From the NCBI GenBank assembly GCA_019359495.1, contig JAHHHF010000096.1, positions 1-64,000 of the forward strand: DNA of 64,000 bases, given 5' to 3'. The translations under genes were made by a program, and so were the position numbers. This document shows, in pieces, positions 24,104 to 31,533 of the stretch. This DNA is from Goleter apudmare HA4340-LM2 (GTDB taxonomy: Bacteria > Cyanobacteriota > Cyanobacteriia > Cyanobacteriales > Nostocaceae). The notes under the pieces are model-generated. The model saw nothing but the letters and a program-made list of their open reading frames with translations, had not been told where the DNA came from and ran no database searches. How positions within the stretch are numbered: the first letter of the stretch is position 1; each line of letters opens with the position of its first letter.

Positions 24104-24535
24104 ATGCTGAAATTAACTTACACCGAAAGGAGCTTTTATTTAGAGTGTCTGACTCTATCGCTGGAAGAATGGGTAGCACAGCGAGCGATTTTGGCATTGC
24201 GAGTCGGTCAATCTTTAAGCATTGAACCTAGCACCGCTTCCTTCTTGCTTCCTGTGGATTTACCAGGAGTAGAGAGGCTAAAGGCTGAGGTGCAATGCCA
24301 TGACAGTAAAATCATTGCACTGTCTCCTTGTGATGTCGAATATATAGAAGTCACTCTCCAGGGTTCATGGTTATCAAACGGTTCTGAGGAGGCTGTGGGT
24401 GTGTTTGTCACGGCGATGAGCGATTCACCCAAAGGCGACAGCTACAGGGCTACGTCTAACGCTTCCAGCACTGAGTTCTTTTTACATAAACTTTGGCAGG
24501 AGGCGCAGGCTTGCGCCTCTGTGACGAGCGAATAA
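24104..24535 (+). CDS. Conserved cyanobacterial hypothetical protein
   Basis: A 143-residue soluble protein, start ATG 24104 with AGGAG at 24089-24093. It opens MLKLTYTERSFYLECL and has the pattern SLEEWVAQRAILALRVG, SFLLPVDLPGVE and TEFFLHKLWQEA. It resembles small Nostoc proteins often found after an HNH gene, but I know no function. A segment at about 106-120 (SPKGDSYRATSNASS) is low in similarity to the rest; its DNA (GGCTACGTCTAACGC) looks like an in-frame small repeat insertion. It follows the HNH remnant by 16 bp and may have been cotranslated with it. Confidence 0.6.
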   Translation: MLKLTYTERSFYLECLTLSLEEWVAQRAILALRVGQSLSIEPSTASFLLPVDLPGVERLKAEVQCHDSKIIALSPCDVEYIEVTLQGSWLSNGSEEAVGVFVTAMSDSPKGDSYRATSNASSTEFFLHKLWQEAQACASVTSE

Positions 24536-24680: not shown

Positions 24681-25946
24681 TTAAAATCGCCCATTCCCCT
24701 GGATAATATGCTTGACCGTAGTCAAAGACTCTAGGCTAATAAATCCCCGTCGATGACCTTTTTGATTGGACATTCCCATAAATACCGAATCTCCCCGCGA
24801 CGGGTTGCGGGAAAAACGGGGAGAAGTGTTGATGTAGGTTGAGGCGCTATTGACTCCCAAGGCAAACTGGCGGCTTTCCTGGTAAGATTCAGTCACAATG
24901 CAGTCGGCATGACCACTGCTATGCTGATTTATCCAGGCGATCGCAGCTTCTAAACTATCTACTAATTTAAAGGCTACTGTCTTGGTTAAATAAGGGCTAC
25001 CCCATTCTCCTTCTTTAGCCAGATGCAATTGGGGAAAGGCTTCTACAAGTTCTACATCCCCTTTAACTTCAAAGCCTTTTTCCTTTAAGCTGTTCCACAG
25101 CACTGCTAAGGATGATGGCAGGGCTTGCCGATGAATCAGGACTTTTTCAATAGCATTTACCGGATCTGGGTCGCTCTCATGGCTATCGATAATCATCCAG
25201 CGCACCATCTCTAAGCTACTATTGAGCGACCAATAGAGGTAACAGTTGCCCATAGCCGATTTTAAAACCGGGCAAGTTGCTTGGCGCACTACTTGCTGTA
25301 CTAAGCTAGAACGTCCGTAGGGGATGACTAAATTCAAGTACTGGTCTTGAACAACTAAATCCCGAATCGAAGCACCGTGCTCTGCTGTGATCAATTCTAT
25401 ACAACCTGGTGGCAGCCCAACTTCTGTAATGGCGGTTTGCATGACATCAGCGATCGCGGCATTAGAATGGCTGGCCTCTGTACTACCTTTGAGAATAATA
25501 CTATTACCCGTTTTGATACATAAACCCGCAGCGATCGCTCCTAAATCAGGAAATGCTTCATAAATAAACCCAATCACTCCCAAAGGCATTAACTGAGAAT
25601 AGCTTTGGGAGTCTTCTTGTTGATACTCAGCGTTTCTGATTCGTCGCAATGGATCTGATAATTCCCCCAATCTTTGCAAAATCTCCACGGTTGTGGCTAG
25701 CCGTTTGGGAGTTAGCTTGAGCCAATCTAAAATCAACTCTGGCACTGCCATTTCCCGACTTGCTTCTAGATCTAAGGTGTTGGCTTCTAGAATGTCGTCA
25801 GATGAGCGCTCAAGGGCTTTTGCCATCGCTAACACAGCGCGACTACGGTCTGCTCCTTTGGCAGTTCCCAACTTCAGGGAGGCTTGAAAAGCGCGTTTGG
25901 CGCTGTTCATTGGTTCAGGGCAATCATCAAAAACTTCAACGGTCAT
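24681..25946 (-). CDS. Gamma-glutamyl phosphate reductase (ProA)-like protein lacking the catalytic Cys
   Basis: 421 residues aligned over the whole length with ProA, which reduces gamma-glutamyl phosphate to the semialdehyde in proline synthesis. Landmarks are GVIGFIYEAFPD, LKGSTEASHSN, VIPYGRSSLVQQV, VNTS-type NTSPRFSRNPSRG and FISLESLTTVKHIIQG. In ProA the nucleophile lies in CN-(A/T)-x-E-x-LL-(V/I). Here the segment reads DPVNAIEKVLIH, so V263 replaces Cys. The frame is intact. It may be a non-catalytic paralogue or use another chemistry; a second proA would be expected elsewhere. It is 4 bp downstream of the zinc-ribbon membrane protein gene. Confidence 0.85.
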   Translation of the reverse strand: MTVEVFDDCPEPMNSAKRAFQASLKLGTAKGADRSRAVLAMAKALERSSDDILEANTLDLEASREMAVPELILDWLKLTPKRLATTVEILQRLGELSDPLRRIRNAEYQQEDSQSYSQLMPLGVIGFIYEAFPDLGAIAAGLCIKTGNSIILKGSTEASHSNAAIADVMQTAITEVGLPPGCIELITAEHGASIRDLVVQDQYLNLVIPYGRSSLVQQVVRQATCPVLKSAMGNCYLYWSLNSSLEMVRWMIIDSHESDPDPVNAIEKVLIHRQALPSSLAVLWNSLKEKGFEVKGDVELVEAFPQLHLAKEGEWGSPYLTKTVAFKLVDSLEAAIAWINQHSSGHADCIVTESYQESRQFALGVNSASTYINTSPRFSRNPSRGDSVFMGMSNQKGHRRGFISLESLTTVKHIIQGNGRF

Positions 25947-25950
25947 TGAG

Positions 25951-26358
25951 TTAACGTCTGTAGGTAAGCCAGACCATTAGCGCTGGCAGGATAGCCAACA
26001 GCACTGCCACCATTGCCCAAGCAATAATGCTGGAACCATTTGCCAATCGCAGTGCTAATGGTAACCATATGATCACTAGCACGAAAATAATGCCCAGTGC
26101 TATTGGCAGATAGCTTTCTCCCAGCCGTGGATGGACAACATGCCAACTACTTCCCGTCCAGCGCCAGGCGCGCTTGTAGGGGTAGGTGGTGGAAAGTTGC
26201 TCTAGGACATATCCATTATCTTCCACCACAAATATTTGTTGACAGCGATCGCAGCCAAAGGCGTCTGTCAAGGTAATGGGAATCAATCGTCCCCGGCGAC
26301 GGCAGGGACAGGGGTATTCCGCGTTAAAGTCGATTTTTTCTGGTTTTTGAGATTGCAC
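25951..26358 (-). CDS. Zinc-ribbon membrane protein, unknown function
   Basis: 135 residues. Two cysteine pairs at the N-terminus (CPC at about 17-19, CDRC at about 36-39) suggest a zinc ribbon. Two hydrophobic helices follow (about 86-105 and 111-131). Between them lies a Trp-rich stretch (KRAWRWTGSSWHVVHP). It is a conserved-looking cyanobacterial protein without known role. Its stop is 4 bp from the ProA-like start, so the two genes form an operon. Confidence 0.65.
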   Translation of the reverse strand: MQSQKPEKIDFNAEYPCPCRRRGRLIPITLTDAFGCDRCQQIFVVEDNGYVLEQLSTTYPYKRAWRWTGSSWHVVHPRLGESYLPIALGIIFVLVIIWLPLALRLANGSSIIAWAMVAVLLAILPALMVWLTYRR

Positions 26359-27410: not shown

Positions 27411-27989
27411 TTAGCTCAGTTCTTCTGATTCCGCAGAAAGAGTGCCGAGGCTGGCACTGGGAAAAGAGGCTGGCAAAGATTGGGAATTATGAGCATATGG
27501 CTCTGTGAGGTTAGAGCGTAACTGCCGCATGAGGCTAGCCATTTCCAAGGCATTCATGGCATAGTCCCAGCCATGATTAGCTTTTATTCCTGCCCTTTCT
27601 AGAGCTTGCTGCATTGTATCCACTGTCAAAATCCCAAAAATCACGGGCACACCAGTTTGAAAGCTAGCGGCGGCGATACCTTTGGCAACTTCAGAAGAGA
27701 CGTAATCAAAATGAGGTGTTTGTCCCCGGATAACTGCTCCTAGGCAAATGACAGCATCATAGCGATGAGAAAGTGCTAATTGACGAGCTACTAAAGGTAC
27801 TTCAAAACTTCCCGGTACCCAAACGTAGTCTACCTGATTACCCTGGGGATTGGGGTCTACACCGTGGCGTTTCAAGCAATCTTGACACCCCTCTAGCAGC
27901 TTGACGGTAACCAGGTCATTGAATCGACCAATCACCACTGCGAACCGTAAAGGTTCTGTTTGAGTAAAAGTTCCCTCAAAAACTGCCAT
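27411..27989 (-). CDS. ribH: 6,7-dimethyl-8-ribityllumazine synthase
   Basis: 192 residues. RibH condenses the ribityl-uracil precursor with dihydroxybutanone phosphate in riboflavin synthesis. Motifs: [47 protein letters not shown] (the His is the proton carrier), and [17 protein letters not shown]. The family core ends near residue 155. The last 35 residues (Ser/Pro-rich, [20 protein letters not shown]) are an extension without known role. It neighbours psbZ on the same strand, a pairing often seen in cyanobacteria. Confidence 0.97.
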
Positions 27990-28154: not shown

Positions 28155-28343
28155 CTAAACTACAAAAAAGTTTAATATACCAACTAAAATCACCAAGATA
28201 GCCCATGCACCTGAGCCAATCCACAATAATCTTTTAGATTCAATCCAGTTTTGTGGAGTGGCATAGGCAACAGGTACGCCAATCACCAGGGCAAAAGATA
28301 GCAGAACTAAAGATAACAAAGCAATTTGGAATAGTATGGTCAT
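28155..28343 (-). CDS. psbZ: Photosystem II protein PsbZ (Ycf9)
   Basis: 62 residues with two membrane helices (about 3-25 and 38-60), starting [17 protein letters not shown] and with [11 protein letters not shown] between the helices, the PsbZ signature. GGGAG lies 8-12 bases upstream of ATG 28343; the frame runs on to 28358 but the inner ATG is the standard start. PsbZ is a thylakoid subunit at the edge of the PSII core that supports dimers and photoprotection. It is followed by ribH at 165 bp. Confidence 0.96.
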
Positions 28344-28358: not shown

Positions 28359-28794
28359 GATAGCTAAATACTAAAGATAGAATATCGTGAAGTAACCACC
28401 ACTGATGCTTTCCTTCAGAACACTACTGCGGATGCACACAGTGGGAATTTCCTGTCTCACTCGCCGTTGCTCTGTTTCCATAGCTGGATACCCGAAACTA
28501 AATTCGGTCTGAGACTTACACGGCATTTAGTGCCTTACGACCTTGATCCGATCAAGCCGGAATCCAGGCAAGATATTGATTTTTGTTTTCAAGGTTTACC
28601 ATGATTATCTAGAATCAGTGGGCAATCCTACCGCTACTAACCTGTGGTATGGCGCGGAAATTCTGGCGGAATTTTGTTAAAGGGCTACACTAAAGGTTTT
28701 TCCCTATTTGTAAGCTAGCAGAAATTGCGTCACTATATTCAATAGTCGCAAGTCCAAACATTTACTTTTGACTTTCGACTCTCGACTCTTGACT
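28359..28794. other. Intergenic region between divergent psbZ and the CCA-adding-type gene
   Basis: 436 bp without a convincing ORF. Promoters of both genes must lie here but none is obvious. At the right end, heptamer-like units TTGACTTTCGACTCTCGACTC (shifted copies of GACTCTT) run up to the start codon at 28795. Confidence 0.4.
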
Positions 28795-31533
28795 ATGGAC
28801 TTGATTCTTTGCCACACAACAGCTGATTTTGATGCATTGGGAGCCGCAGTAGGGCTAACGTGCTTACTGCCGGGGAGTAAGATTGTGCTGACTGGGGGTG
28901 CTCATCCACCAGTCAGAGACTTTCTTGCTTTGCATCGAGATGAGTATCCCCTGATTGAAAGACGTGCAGTCAATCGAGAAACGATTCGTTCCCTAACGGT
29001 GGTGGATACACAACAGCGCGATCGCTTGGGTAAAGCTGCCGAGTGGTTAGACTTAGCCCATATTGAAGAGATCATAGTGTATGACCATCACCTAGGACAA
29101 GACCGAGACATTCCTGCTACGCAATTGTATGTTTCCGCAGTGGGAGCTACAACCACTTTAATCGTCGAACAATTGCAACAACAGCAATTATCCCTCACCC
29201 CATCTCAGTCTACAGTGATGGCTTTAGGTATCCACGTTGACACTGGTTCCCTCACATTTGACCAATCGACACCACGGGATGCTTTAGCTTTGGCTTGGTT
29301 AATGGCACAAGGAGCCAGTTTATCGGTGATTTCTACCTACCGTGATCCTGGTTTGTCTGTGGAATTGCAGCGACTCTTGACTGATGCACTGGAAAACTTA
29401 AATTATCTCTGTTTACATGGATATACGATCGCCTGGATAACTATGAAAACAGATGGTTTTGTACCAGGATTATCAAGTTTGGCTTCCCAATTGATGGAGT
29501 TAAGCGAAATAGATGCTTTATTATTGGCAAATGAATATCCTTTGGGAGATGATGATTCTCGCCTGACAGTGATTGGGCGATCGCAAATTCCTGGTGTCAA
29601 TCTCAATCAATTATTCCAACCTTTGGGTGGTGGTGGTCATTCTCAAGCAACCTCCCTCAATCTCCGAGGTGTAGACTCCCAAGCCATATTAAATCAACTT
29701 CTGGACGGTATTCAAGCGACTATTCCCCATCCCCCCACAGCCAGGGATTTAATGTCCTCCCCAGTCCGCACTATCCGCCCAGACACGACAATCACTGAAG
29801 CACAGCGCATCTTACTACGCTACGGACACTCTGGTTTATCTGTGGTTAATACCCAAGGACAACTGGTAGGGATTATTTCTAGAAGGGATATTGATATCGC
29901 CCTACATCATGGCTTTAGCCATGCACCAGTCAAAGGCTATATGACTACCAGTGTCAAGACAATCACACCAGATACGACATTGCCACAAATTGAGTCGTTG
30001 ATGGTGACGTATGATATTGGGCGCTTACCCGTCTTAGACCAAGAACATTTAGTGGGCATTGTCACTCGGACTGATGTGTTGCGAGAACTACATCAAAACA
30101 GTGCAGAGTGCCCGGTGCTGAGTTCTGAGAGAGAATTTAGACTCAGCACTGGGCACTCACAACTGAGTACTGAATTACAATCTCGACTGACTCCCCAACT
30201 TTGGCAATTACTCACCACAGCATCACAGGAAGCAGAAAAACGGGGTTGGCATCTTTATCTTGTGGGTGGTGCTGTGCGGGATTTACTTTTAGCTGAAGCA
30301 GCTACAGGTACGTTGATGATTACAGATATTGACCTTGTGGTTGATGGCTTTCACAAAGCCGCAGATGTGGGTGCTGGTGTAGAACTTGCCAAGGCATTGC
30401 AAAAAGTTTACCCAGAAGCCCGCTTAGAAATTCATGGCGCTTTTCAAACGGCTGCCTTGCTATGGCACAAAGATCCGGTATTAGACTCTTTGTGGGTAGA
30501 TATCGCCACCGCTAGAACCGAATTCTATCCCTACCCGGCAGCAAATCCCGAAGTAGAAGCGAGTTCTATTCGTCAAGACCTATATCGTCGAGATTTTACC
30601 ATCAACGCCATGGCATTGCGACTAACTGCACCTAGGGCGGGGGAATTGCTCGACTTTTTTGGTGGTTTACTAGATTTACAAGCTAAACAAATTCGGACTT
30701 TACACCCCAACAGTTTTATTGAAGACCCTACTCGGATTTATCGCGGTGTGCGTTTTGCTGTACGCCTGGGATTTCAAATCGAACCGCAAACAGAAGGCTA
30801 TATTCGTTATGCCATTAACAGTGGGATTTACGATCGCACCGCCCAAAAAAATAGCAGAACTCCCGCCTTACAAACTCGCCTGAAAGCAGAATTAAAACAT
30901 ATCTTAGAAGCACCCTACTGGCAAAAAGCTTTGCAGTTACTCGATAATTTGAGTGCATTGCAGTGCATTCACCCCACCCTCAGTCTCAATGCCGAACTGC
31001 TGCGACAATTAAGTTTGCTAGAACGCTGTTTACGTCGTTTTGACCCCCAACAAAGCCTTATGCATTGGCAAATGTGCTTAGAAGCCTTGATTGCTCACCT
31101 CGCACCTGAATATCGAGGGAACGTCGCTATCAATTTGCAATTACCAGAGGATAGTATCACCAGGCTGAAAAACTTGACTCAGGTACAAGCTGAGGTGATG
31201 TCATCATTACCGAGTTGTGAGCGCCCCAGTCAATTAGTGCAATTGCTCAAAGAGTACAACTTGCCAATGCTGATTTTAATAGCTGTGCAAAGTCCGCGAT
31301 GTCTGACGACAAGCCGCTGCGCGTCTACGCTCAGGCGTCAAATTTGGCAATATTTTACCCATTGGGCTAATGTACAGCCATTGTTGAACGGTAACGACTT
31401 AAAACAATTGGGCTACAAACCAGGACCACAGTATCGTCAAATTCTCGATGAATTGCTAGTGGCAACTTTGGATGGTGTGATTAAAACTAAAGCAGAAGCA
31501 GAAGAATTTTTATCCCAGTCTTATCCTCAGTAA
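28795..31533 (+). CDS. DHH/CBS/tRNA nucleotidyltransferase (CCA-adding or poly(A)-polymerase type) fusion
   Basis: 912 residues from ATG 28795 (MDLILCHTTADFDALG). Order: DHH phosphoesterase (about 1-320; CHTTADFDA, VVDTQQRD, YDHHLG, GGGGHSQATSL), two CBS domains (about 320-440; ARDLMSSPVRTI and VKGYMTTSVKTI), then a class II nucleotidyltransferase head (LVGGAVRDLLL, DIDLVVDG, RDFTINAMA, DPTRIYRGVRFAVRLGF) and C-terminal RNA-binding helices. It repairs tRNA 3' CCA ends or adds A tails; the DHH part could hydrolyse small nucleotides. Two insertions stand out: a 17-bp inverted repeat in the CBS-to-polymerase linker and a repeat-like insertion near residue 840. Confidence 0.9.
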   Translation: MDLILCHTTADFDALGAAVGLTCLLPGSKIVLTGGAHPPVRDFLALHRDEYPLIERRAVNRETIRSLTVVDTQQRDRLGKAAEWLDLAHIEEIIVYDHHLGQDRDIPATQLYVSAVGATTTLIVEQLQQQQLSLTPSQSTVMALGIHVDTGSLTFDQSTPRDALALAWLMAQGASLSVISTYRDPGLSVELQRLLTDALENLNYLCLHGYTIAWITMKTDGFVPGLSSLASQLMELSEIDALLLANEYPLGDDDSRLTVIGRSQIPGVNLNQLFQPLGGGGHSQATSLNLRGVDSQAILNQLLDGIQATIPHPPTARDLMSSPVRTIRPDTTITEAQRILLRYGHSGLSVVNTQGQLVGIISRRDIDIALHHGFSHAPVKGYMTTSVKTITPDTTLPQIESLMVTYDIGRLPVLDQEHLVGIVTRTDVLRELHQNSAECPVLSSEREFRLSTGHSQLSTELQSRLTPQLWQLLTTASQEAEKRGWHLYLVGGAVRDLLLAEAATGTLMITDIDLVVDGFHKAADVGAGVELAKALQKVYPEARLEIHGAFQTAALLWHKDPVLDSLWVDIATARTEFYPYPAANPEVEASSIRQDLYRRDFTINAMALRLTAPRAGELLDFFGGLLDLQAKQIRTLHPNSFIEDPTRIYRGVRFAVRLGFQIEPQTEGYIRYAINSGIYDRTAQKNSRTPALQTRLKAELKHILEAPYWQKALQLLDNLSALQCIHPTLSLNAELLRQLSLLERCLRRFDPQQSLMHWQMCLEALIAHLAPEYRGNVAINLQLPEDSITRLKNLTQVQAEVMSSLPSCERPSQLVQLLKEYNLPMLILIAVQSPRCLTTSRCASTLRRQIWQYFTHWANVQPLLNGNDLKQLGYKPGPQYRQILDELLVATLDGVIKTKAEAEEFLSQSYPQ
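30107..30157. repeat. Inverted repeat inside coding sequence
   Basis: AGTGCCCGGTGCTGAGT (30107-30123) and ACTCAGCACTGGGCACT (30141-30157) pair over 17 bp with one mismatch. The insert stays in frame and codes for the linker between the CBS domains and the nucleotidyltransferase. Confidence 0.85.

Follow-up and report, generated by a model that had tools for sequence, protein, structure and literature searches.

The window, a 64,000-nt stretch of a contig from the cyanobacterium Goleter apudmare HA4340-LM2, carries a gene for a paralogue of ProA, the proline-biosynthesis enzyme gamma-glutamyl phosphate reductase (EC 1.2.1.41), in which valine stands at the position of the catalytic cysteine, and directly upstream of it a gene for a small zinc-ribbon membrane protein (Table 1). 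We call the paralogue V-type, and ProA proteins that retain the cysteine Cys-type. An intact frame, a GTA codon (with no strand given) and a zinc-ribbon membrane protein gene 4 bp before the ORF had been described previously, and all three hold: the ORF is open, GTA is read on the minus strand and the gap measures 4 nt. Membrane helices of the zinc-ribbon protein were judged by eye from its hydrophobic C-terminal half. Downstream of the V-type gene and facing it, a conserved cyanobacterial alr0857 family protein is encoded at 24104-24535 on the plus strand. A 921-aa ORF at 28768-31533, also on the plus strand, seems by eye to combine DHH phosphoesterase, CBS and tRNA nucleotidyltransferase domains in one chain. 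A scan for promoters and terminators returned 6 and 1 sites, respectively, against 6.9 and 4.6 in shuffled sequences.

Table 1. Features around the V-type gene, in window coordinates
Feature	Position	Strand	Remarks
V-type ProA paralogue (pseudo-ProA)	24681..25946	minus	421 aa; ATG start; frame intact
Codon 263 (GTA, Val), aligned with the catalytic Cys of ProA	25158..25160	minus	
Zinc-ribbon membrane protein gene, conserved partner	25951..26358	minus	135 aa; GTG start; Cys 17, 19, 36, 39
ribH, lumazine synthase	27411..27989	minus	frequent neighbour, upstream of the zinc-ribbon gene
psbZ (Ycf9), photosystem II subunit	28155..28343	minus	frequent neighbour, upstream of the zinc-ribbon gene

The window protein is homologous to ProA over its full length (phmmer E value of 2.9e-69 to 4ghk). 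In alignments to solved ProA chains, Val263 falls on residue 267 of the 1o20 chain, which is native Thermotoga maritima Cys255, and both pairwise comparison and a 111-row alignment pair it with this residue, in agreement with the earlier assignment to the nucleophile. The valine is a family trait and not an oddity, since 171 of 230 distinct relatives have V, I, A, or P there (V in 163, C in 57, I in 4, and A, P, and G in 2 each). The nucleophile Cys is thus absent from 173 sequences, counting two very divergent ones with Gly, and among the 171 non-Cys-type sequences, the set to which the residue counts below refer, the orthologues keep Val in 163. The two Gly sequences (loci L243 and L244, 1480-2793 on the minus strand, from f10 genomes), which are left out of those 171, are ProA-like, have the zinc-ribbon gene upstream and form a long branch beside the V-type clade in a quick tree of 98 rows; they are likely members of the V-type family.

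All 145 genomes of the class that were searched gave a ProA-type match. From these, 110 ORFs were fetched. The Cys is present in 24 of them; the 86 that lack it come from as many genomes and have V in 80 cases, I in 4 and P in 2. In a collection of named genomes, 526 stretches encoded a relative of the V-type profile, and the best 80, which their titles, where informative, place in Nostocales, read V in 79 cases and A in one at the Cys column. In a plasmid collection, 93 records held a ProA with less than 60% identity. Outside the class, 13 ProA sequences were obtained from members of the phylum, and every one carries the Cys. The V-type is not found in every cyanobacterium: 13 f7 genomes, one of them (G090) presumably Prochlorococcus MIT 9301, and seven of eight f22 genomes have a single match at the score level of the Cys-type, the eighth f22 genome (G074) has a single TIGR00407 match above the cut-off, and genome G123 has the Cys copy only. 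The genome of the window (G000) itself holds a second ProA with the Cys on another contig (L094, 554 bits, above the TIGR00407 cut-off), which answers the question, raised in the preliminary description, of a second proA in the same genome.

The same description presented the exchange as a single substitution in an otherwise well-kept ProA, and this framing could not be maintained, given that far more residues of the site have changed and that the cofactor and substrate end is poorly kept. ProA proper (TIGR00407; 1o20, 4ghk, and 8zok) is homologous to the V-type over the whole length, with 1o20 nearest to the predicted fold, but has the catalytic Cys and R67, R124, R202, H228, K248, E310, D372, and E381. 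These eight are invariant in 57 of 57 Cys-type sequences and replaced in the non-Cys set, so that, with the Cys, nine such invariant residues have been exchanged. The replacements are themselves well defined: R67 is W in 170 of the 171 sequences (one gap), R124 is F, L, or I, R202 is Y in 165 and H in 6, H228 is Y in 166 (H is retained in one), K248 is mostly H (151), E310 is P, A, or S, D372 is R in 170 and H in 1, and E381 is F in 113, A in 45, or another residue. Nearly fixed across the non-Cys set are W75 (170), Y210 (165), Y236 (166), and R380 (170), and every one of 49 V-type rows has R212; beside V263, N264 is retained in 164 sequences and E267 in 169. In 47 Cys-type sequences, 77 columns have a residue conserved to 90% or better; across 49 V-type sequences, this residue still reaches 90% in 26 of the columns and does not exceed 10% in 17. 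The NADPH-site motifs, described earlier as well kept, are kept in part: the KTGN...LKG..EA..SN stretch is present in the window protein, while other invariants, R202 and E310 among them, have been lost. We take E310 to be the counterpart of the cofactor-binding Glu399 of other aldehyde dehydrogenases (ALDHs). As for E381, T. maritima Glu381 lies within 9 Å of Cys255 and matters for activity according to the accessible text of two sources (PMC4271523, PMC6941894), and for its E. coli equivalent, Glu383, the available part of the former gives a 190- to 2,100-fold loss of activity upon change to Ala (PMC4271523).

Two cysteines were considered as substitutes for the nucleophile and judged improbable, as neither lies at its position and neither is newly gained. 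C235 (T. maritima Cys227) occurs in 96.5% of the 171 non-Cys-type sequences and in 100% of Cys-type ProA, and C143 in 93.6% and 33%, respectively. In the segments that bear the pocket, the novel residues hardly vary instead of drifting; together with the part of the dinucleotide stretch that is kept, this could also mean that the ProA fold has given rise to a new enzyme, with a non-covalent reaction on another substrate and the zinc-ribbon protein as anchor or helper. We consider this unlikely, if worth bearing in mind, as no catalytic group could be identified, E310 and R202 are gone and the neighbouring genes suggest no substrate.

Family models disagree on these proteins. The window protein and those of loci L054 and L241 fall below the TIGR00407 cut-off of 317.45 bits (288.6, 252.7, and 282.3 bits, respectively) and pass the NF001221 cut-off of 289 bits (336, 307.4, and 327.3). 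NF001221 labels V-type proteins glutamate-5-semialdehyde dehydrogenase and TIGR00407 does not, a discrepancy that is a likely source of wrong labels. We did not file the V-type as ProA because the ProA fold is present but the residues that define the enzyme fail. An AlphaFold2 model built from 13 sequences (mean pLDDT 73.3, pTM 0.53; poor at residues 375 to 420 and at 258 to 261, just before the Val) had 1o20 as its best VIA-align match (Z of 34.0, rmsd of 13.4, 363 residues aligned), which supports a retained ProA-type ALDH fold; such a model speaks for fold and not for function.

The V-type gene is under strong purifying selection after the loss of the Cys. Nei-Gojobori omega values between V-type pairs were 0.024 to 0.064, which are rough values, as synonymous distances mostly approach or exceed 1. 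Four genome pairs were tried for both copies, with one side saturated in two of them; in the two computable pairs, omega was 0.055 and 0.058 for the V-type, and the Cys copy gave 0.099 and 0.154. With an ALDH fold from which the Cys has been lost and selection that continued after the loss, the V-type looks like an ALDH-superfamily pseudoenzyme. A Cys copy elsewhere in the genome of the window might have left its paralogue free to decay, or the valine might be a sequencing error; these explanations can practically be dismissed, as the same loss is found in 173 of the 230 distinct sequences, the frame is open, omega is low and new residues have become fixed. The earlier opinion that the change was not simple decay is borne out.

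The zinc-ribbon gene, noted at the outset only as a neighbour, turned out to be a conserved partner. When a single V-type locus was taken from each of 68 genomes, its cluster was present in 57, always on the same strand, and the next commonest neighbour in 26. Counting all non-Cys loci whose upstream flank reaches 700 nt (186, with some genomes counted more than once), the gene lies directly upstream in 181, 178 by profile search and three recovered as misses of that search. In L036, L045, and L096, it is present and overlaps an over-extended frame, and it was not found in the fetched flank of L043, L047, L054, L055, and L058. Cys 17, 36, and 39 are present in 57 of 57 copies and Cys 19 in 51. 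The window zinc-ribbon protein had no Pfam family match and no relative among solved structures; a homologue reaches 22 bits against DUF2396, whose cut-off is 21, and others match only below the cut-off. Among Cys-type loci with flanking sequence, the gene was upstream of proA in eight of 39, namely seven of the eight loci that we call Gloeobacter-like (L084 to L088 and L091 to L093) and L098. At L098 (3569-5284), from an f22 genome, 33 nt separate it from a downstream ProA of the common Cys-type, as if the partner had been exchanged; it is absent from L099, L100, and L266, other loci of the same ProA family. psbZ and ribH each occur beside 24 of 62 V-type loci and none of the eight Gloeobacter-like ones, and probably lie outside the module formed by the V-type and zinc-ribbon genes.

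In a tree of 78 rows, which omits the two divergent rows from f10, V_L097, and another 17 rows of the V-type and whose root is not fixed, V-type sequences formed a single clade (100/100, bootstrap/SH-aLRT), which together with the Gloeobacter-like rows split from all others (99/90). The common cyanobacterial Cys ProA formed a clade of its own (100/99), joined by three ProAs of non-photosynthetic members of the phylum (96/60) and by these together with a haloarchaeal one (100/100). In the 98-row tree, which includes the omitted rows, the Gloeobacter-like sequences stood beside the V-type and f10 rows. An origin of the V-type from the common cyanobacterial Cys ProA was rejected when this grouping was imposed (p-AU of 0.0065, log-likelihood lower by 65.35).

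The Gloeobacter-like ProAs, two of whose genomes (G013 and G047) we take to be Gloeobacter violaceus and G. kilaueensis, are the relevant comparison. As with the V-type, whose nearest clade they form, the same zinc-ribbon gene lies upstream, in seven of the eight; unlike the V-type, they keep the Cys and the other ProA residues, are the sole ProA match in their genomes and, in the one case tested (L087, 458.7 bits), pass TIGR00407. At all 17 columns lost from the V-type, the eight proteins have the residue of the Cys set, except for one V-to-I exchange in one row, and, judged by their residues, they would be active ProAs. Because the zinc-ribbon gene is upstream in both and the trees join both, the simplest history seems to be that the V-type is the Gloeobacter-type ProA after the loss of catalysis. 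Catalysis would have disappeared in the lineage that gave rise to most other cyanobacteria, with a second ProA at hand, and the pairing with the zinc-ribbon gene, presumably older than the loss, would have stayed. The second ProA may have been a later gain, or the Gloeobacter-like genomes may have lost it.

Two genomes complicate this picture. G143, a single contig (L264, L241), and G066 (L265, L240) have ProB and ProC and only a V-type ProA, and no Cys-bearing ProA was found in either. G494, a congener of G143, carries both copies, and no stretch collinear with the 40 kb around its Cys proA was found in 360 kb of G143. A TIGR00300 protein, a possible alternative proline route, is present in G066 and in neither G143 nor G001. 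These organisms may obtain proline in another way, their assemblies may lack the gene, or the V-type may do more than thought; given these two genomes, it may have residual or new activity. They speak for the view that the V-type is still a ProA, forming glutamate semialdehyde by Cys-independent chemistry or via C143 or C235, both of which are kept, and the passing of the NF001221 cut-off points the same way. We nevertheless judge this improbable: eight invariant residues besides the Cys are lost, Glu381 among them, G494 and the genome of the window keep a Cys copy, the Cys gene may simply be missing from an assembly, and C235 is also present in Cys-type ProA. G143 and G066 bear likewise on the idea of an inactive structural subunit that fills mixed ProA oligomers and has no ligand or membrane role, since they lack a Cys ProA to join. 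Although the fold is kept and ProA forms oligomers, according to PDB titles, this idea leaves the fixed new residues and the zinc-ribbon partner unexplained, and we give it little credence.

The reading that we favour, with a chance of about one half in our estimation, is that the window protein is a cyanobacterial ProA pseudoenzyme, a regulatory or anchoring subunit that binds a ligand and has the zinc-ribbon protein as its partner. The regulatory or structural role proposed in the preliminary description is likewise putative. The parts of the favoured reading are not equally firm. The V-type is very probably not a ProA reductase, and it probably works together with the zinc-ribbon protein; that it acts on the proline/glutamate branch, a pathway suggested by ancestry and, weakly, by L098, is a tentative proposal, somewhat short of an even chance. 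Mechanistically, the loss of the Cys would preclude the thioacyl intermediate and with it ProA activity, and the rebuilt pocket would hold another small ligand with no covalent chemistry. The zinc-ribbon protein would hold the V-type at a membrane, and the pair would be a sensor or anchor, most likely for glutamate-to-proline (carbon/nitrogen) metabolism, docking perhaps on ProB or the Cys-type ProA. A more specific version seems rather unlikely to us as a whole: a membrane-tethered metabolite sensor in which the ProA with its remodelled pocket is the ligand-binding half beside the zinc-ribbon protein and steers glutamate between proline and other carbon/nitrogen sinks, and which, where a Cys ProA is lacking, may supply the missing step by new chemistry.

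Comparable cases exist in the same superfamily. Human ALDH16A1, an ALDH pseudoenzyme of another subfamily that we liken to the V-type by description, also lacks catalytic residues and is thought to act by binding, according to the text available (PMC10650815). The GPR domain of P5CS (ALDH18A1) is homologous to the V-type but fused to a kinase domain, and the consulted portion of a Drosophila study names Cys598 as its catalytic residue (PMC8963878). In the literature searched, which covered few subscription journals and no supplements, we found no paper on a Cys-less ProA. A survey of ProA and ProB reports, in its accessible part, one gene each for 27 cyanobacterial species (PMC11061531). For Synechocystis, two proA genes, sll0461 and sll0373, are both read as converting glutamate to proline in the accessible text of one study (PMC12386471), and sll0461 disruption raises PHB according to the available passages of reviews (PMC3766872, PMC3859321). 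The study that assigns both genes this one function would need to be re-read if sll0461 or sll0373 is V-type.

Since NF001221 accepts the three V-type proteins tested and the genome collection holds 526 stretches related to the V-type profile, the label "glutamate-5-semialdehyde dehydrogenase" is probably wrong for one such protein in many cyanobacterial genomes. In many cyanobacteria, the V-type ProA beside a small zinc-ribbon membrane protein is probably an ancient copy and not the enzyme of its database label. It offers a natural case in which catalysis was lost and an older operon partner stayed, with the Cys-bearing counterpart still extant for comparison.
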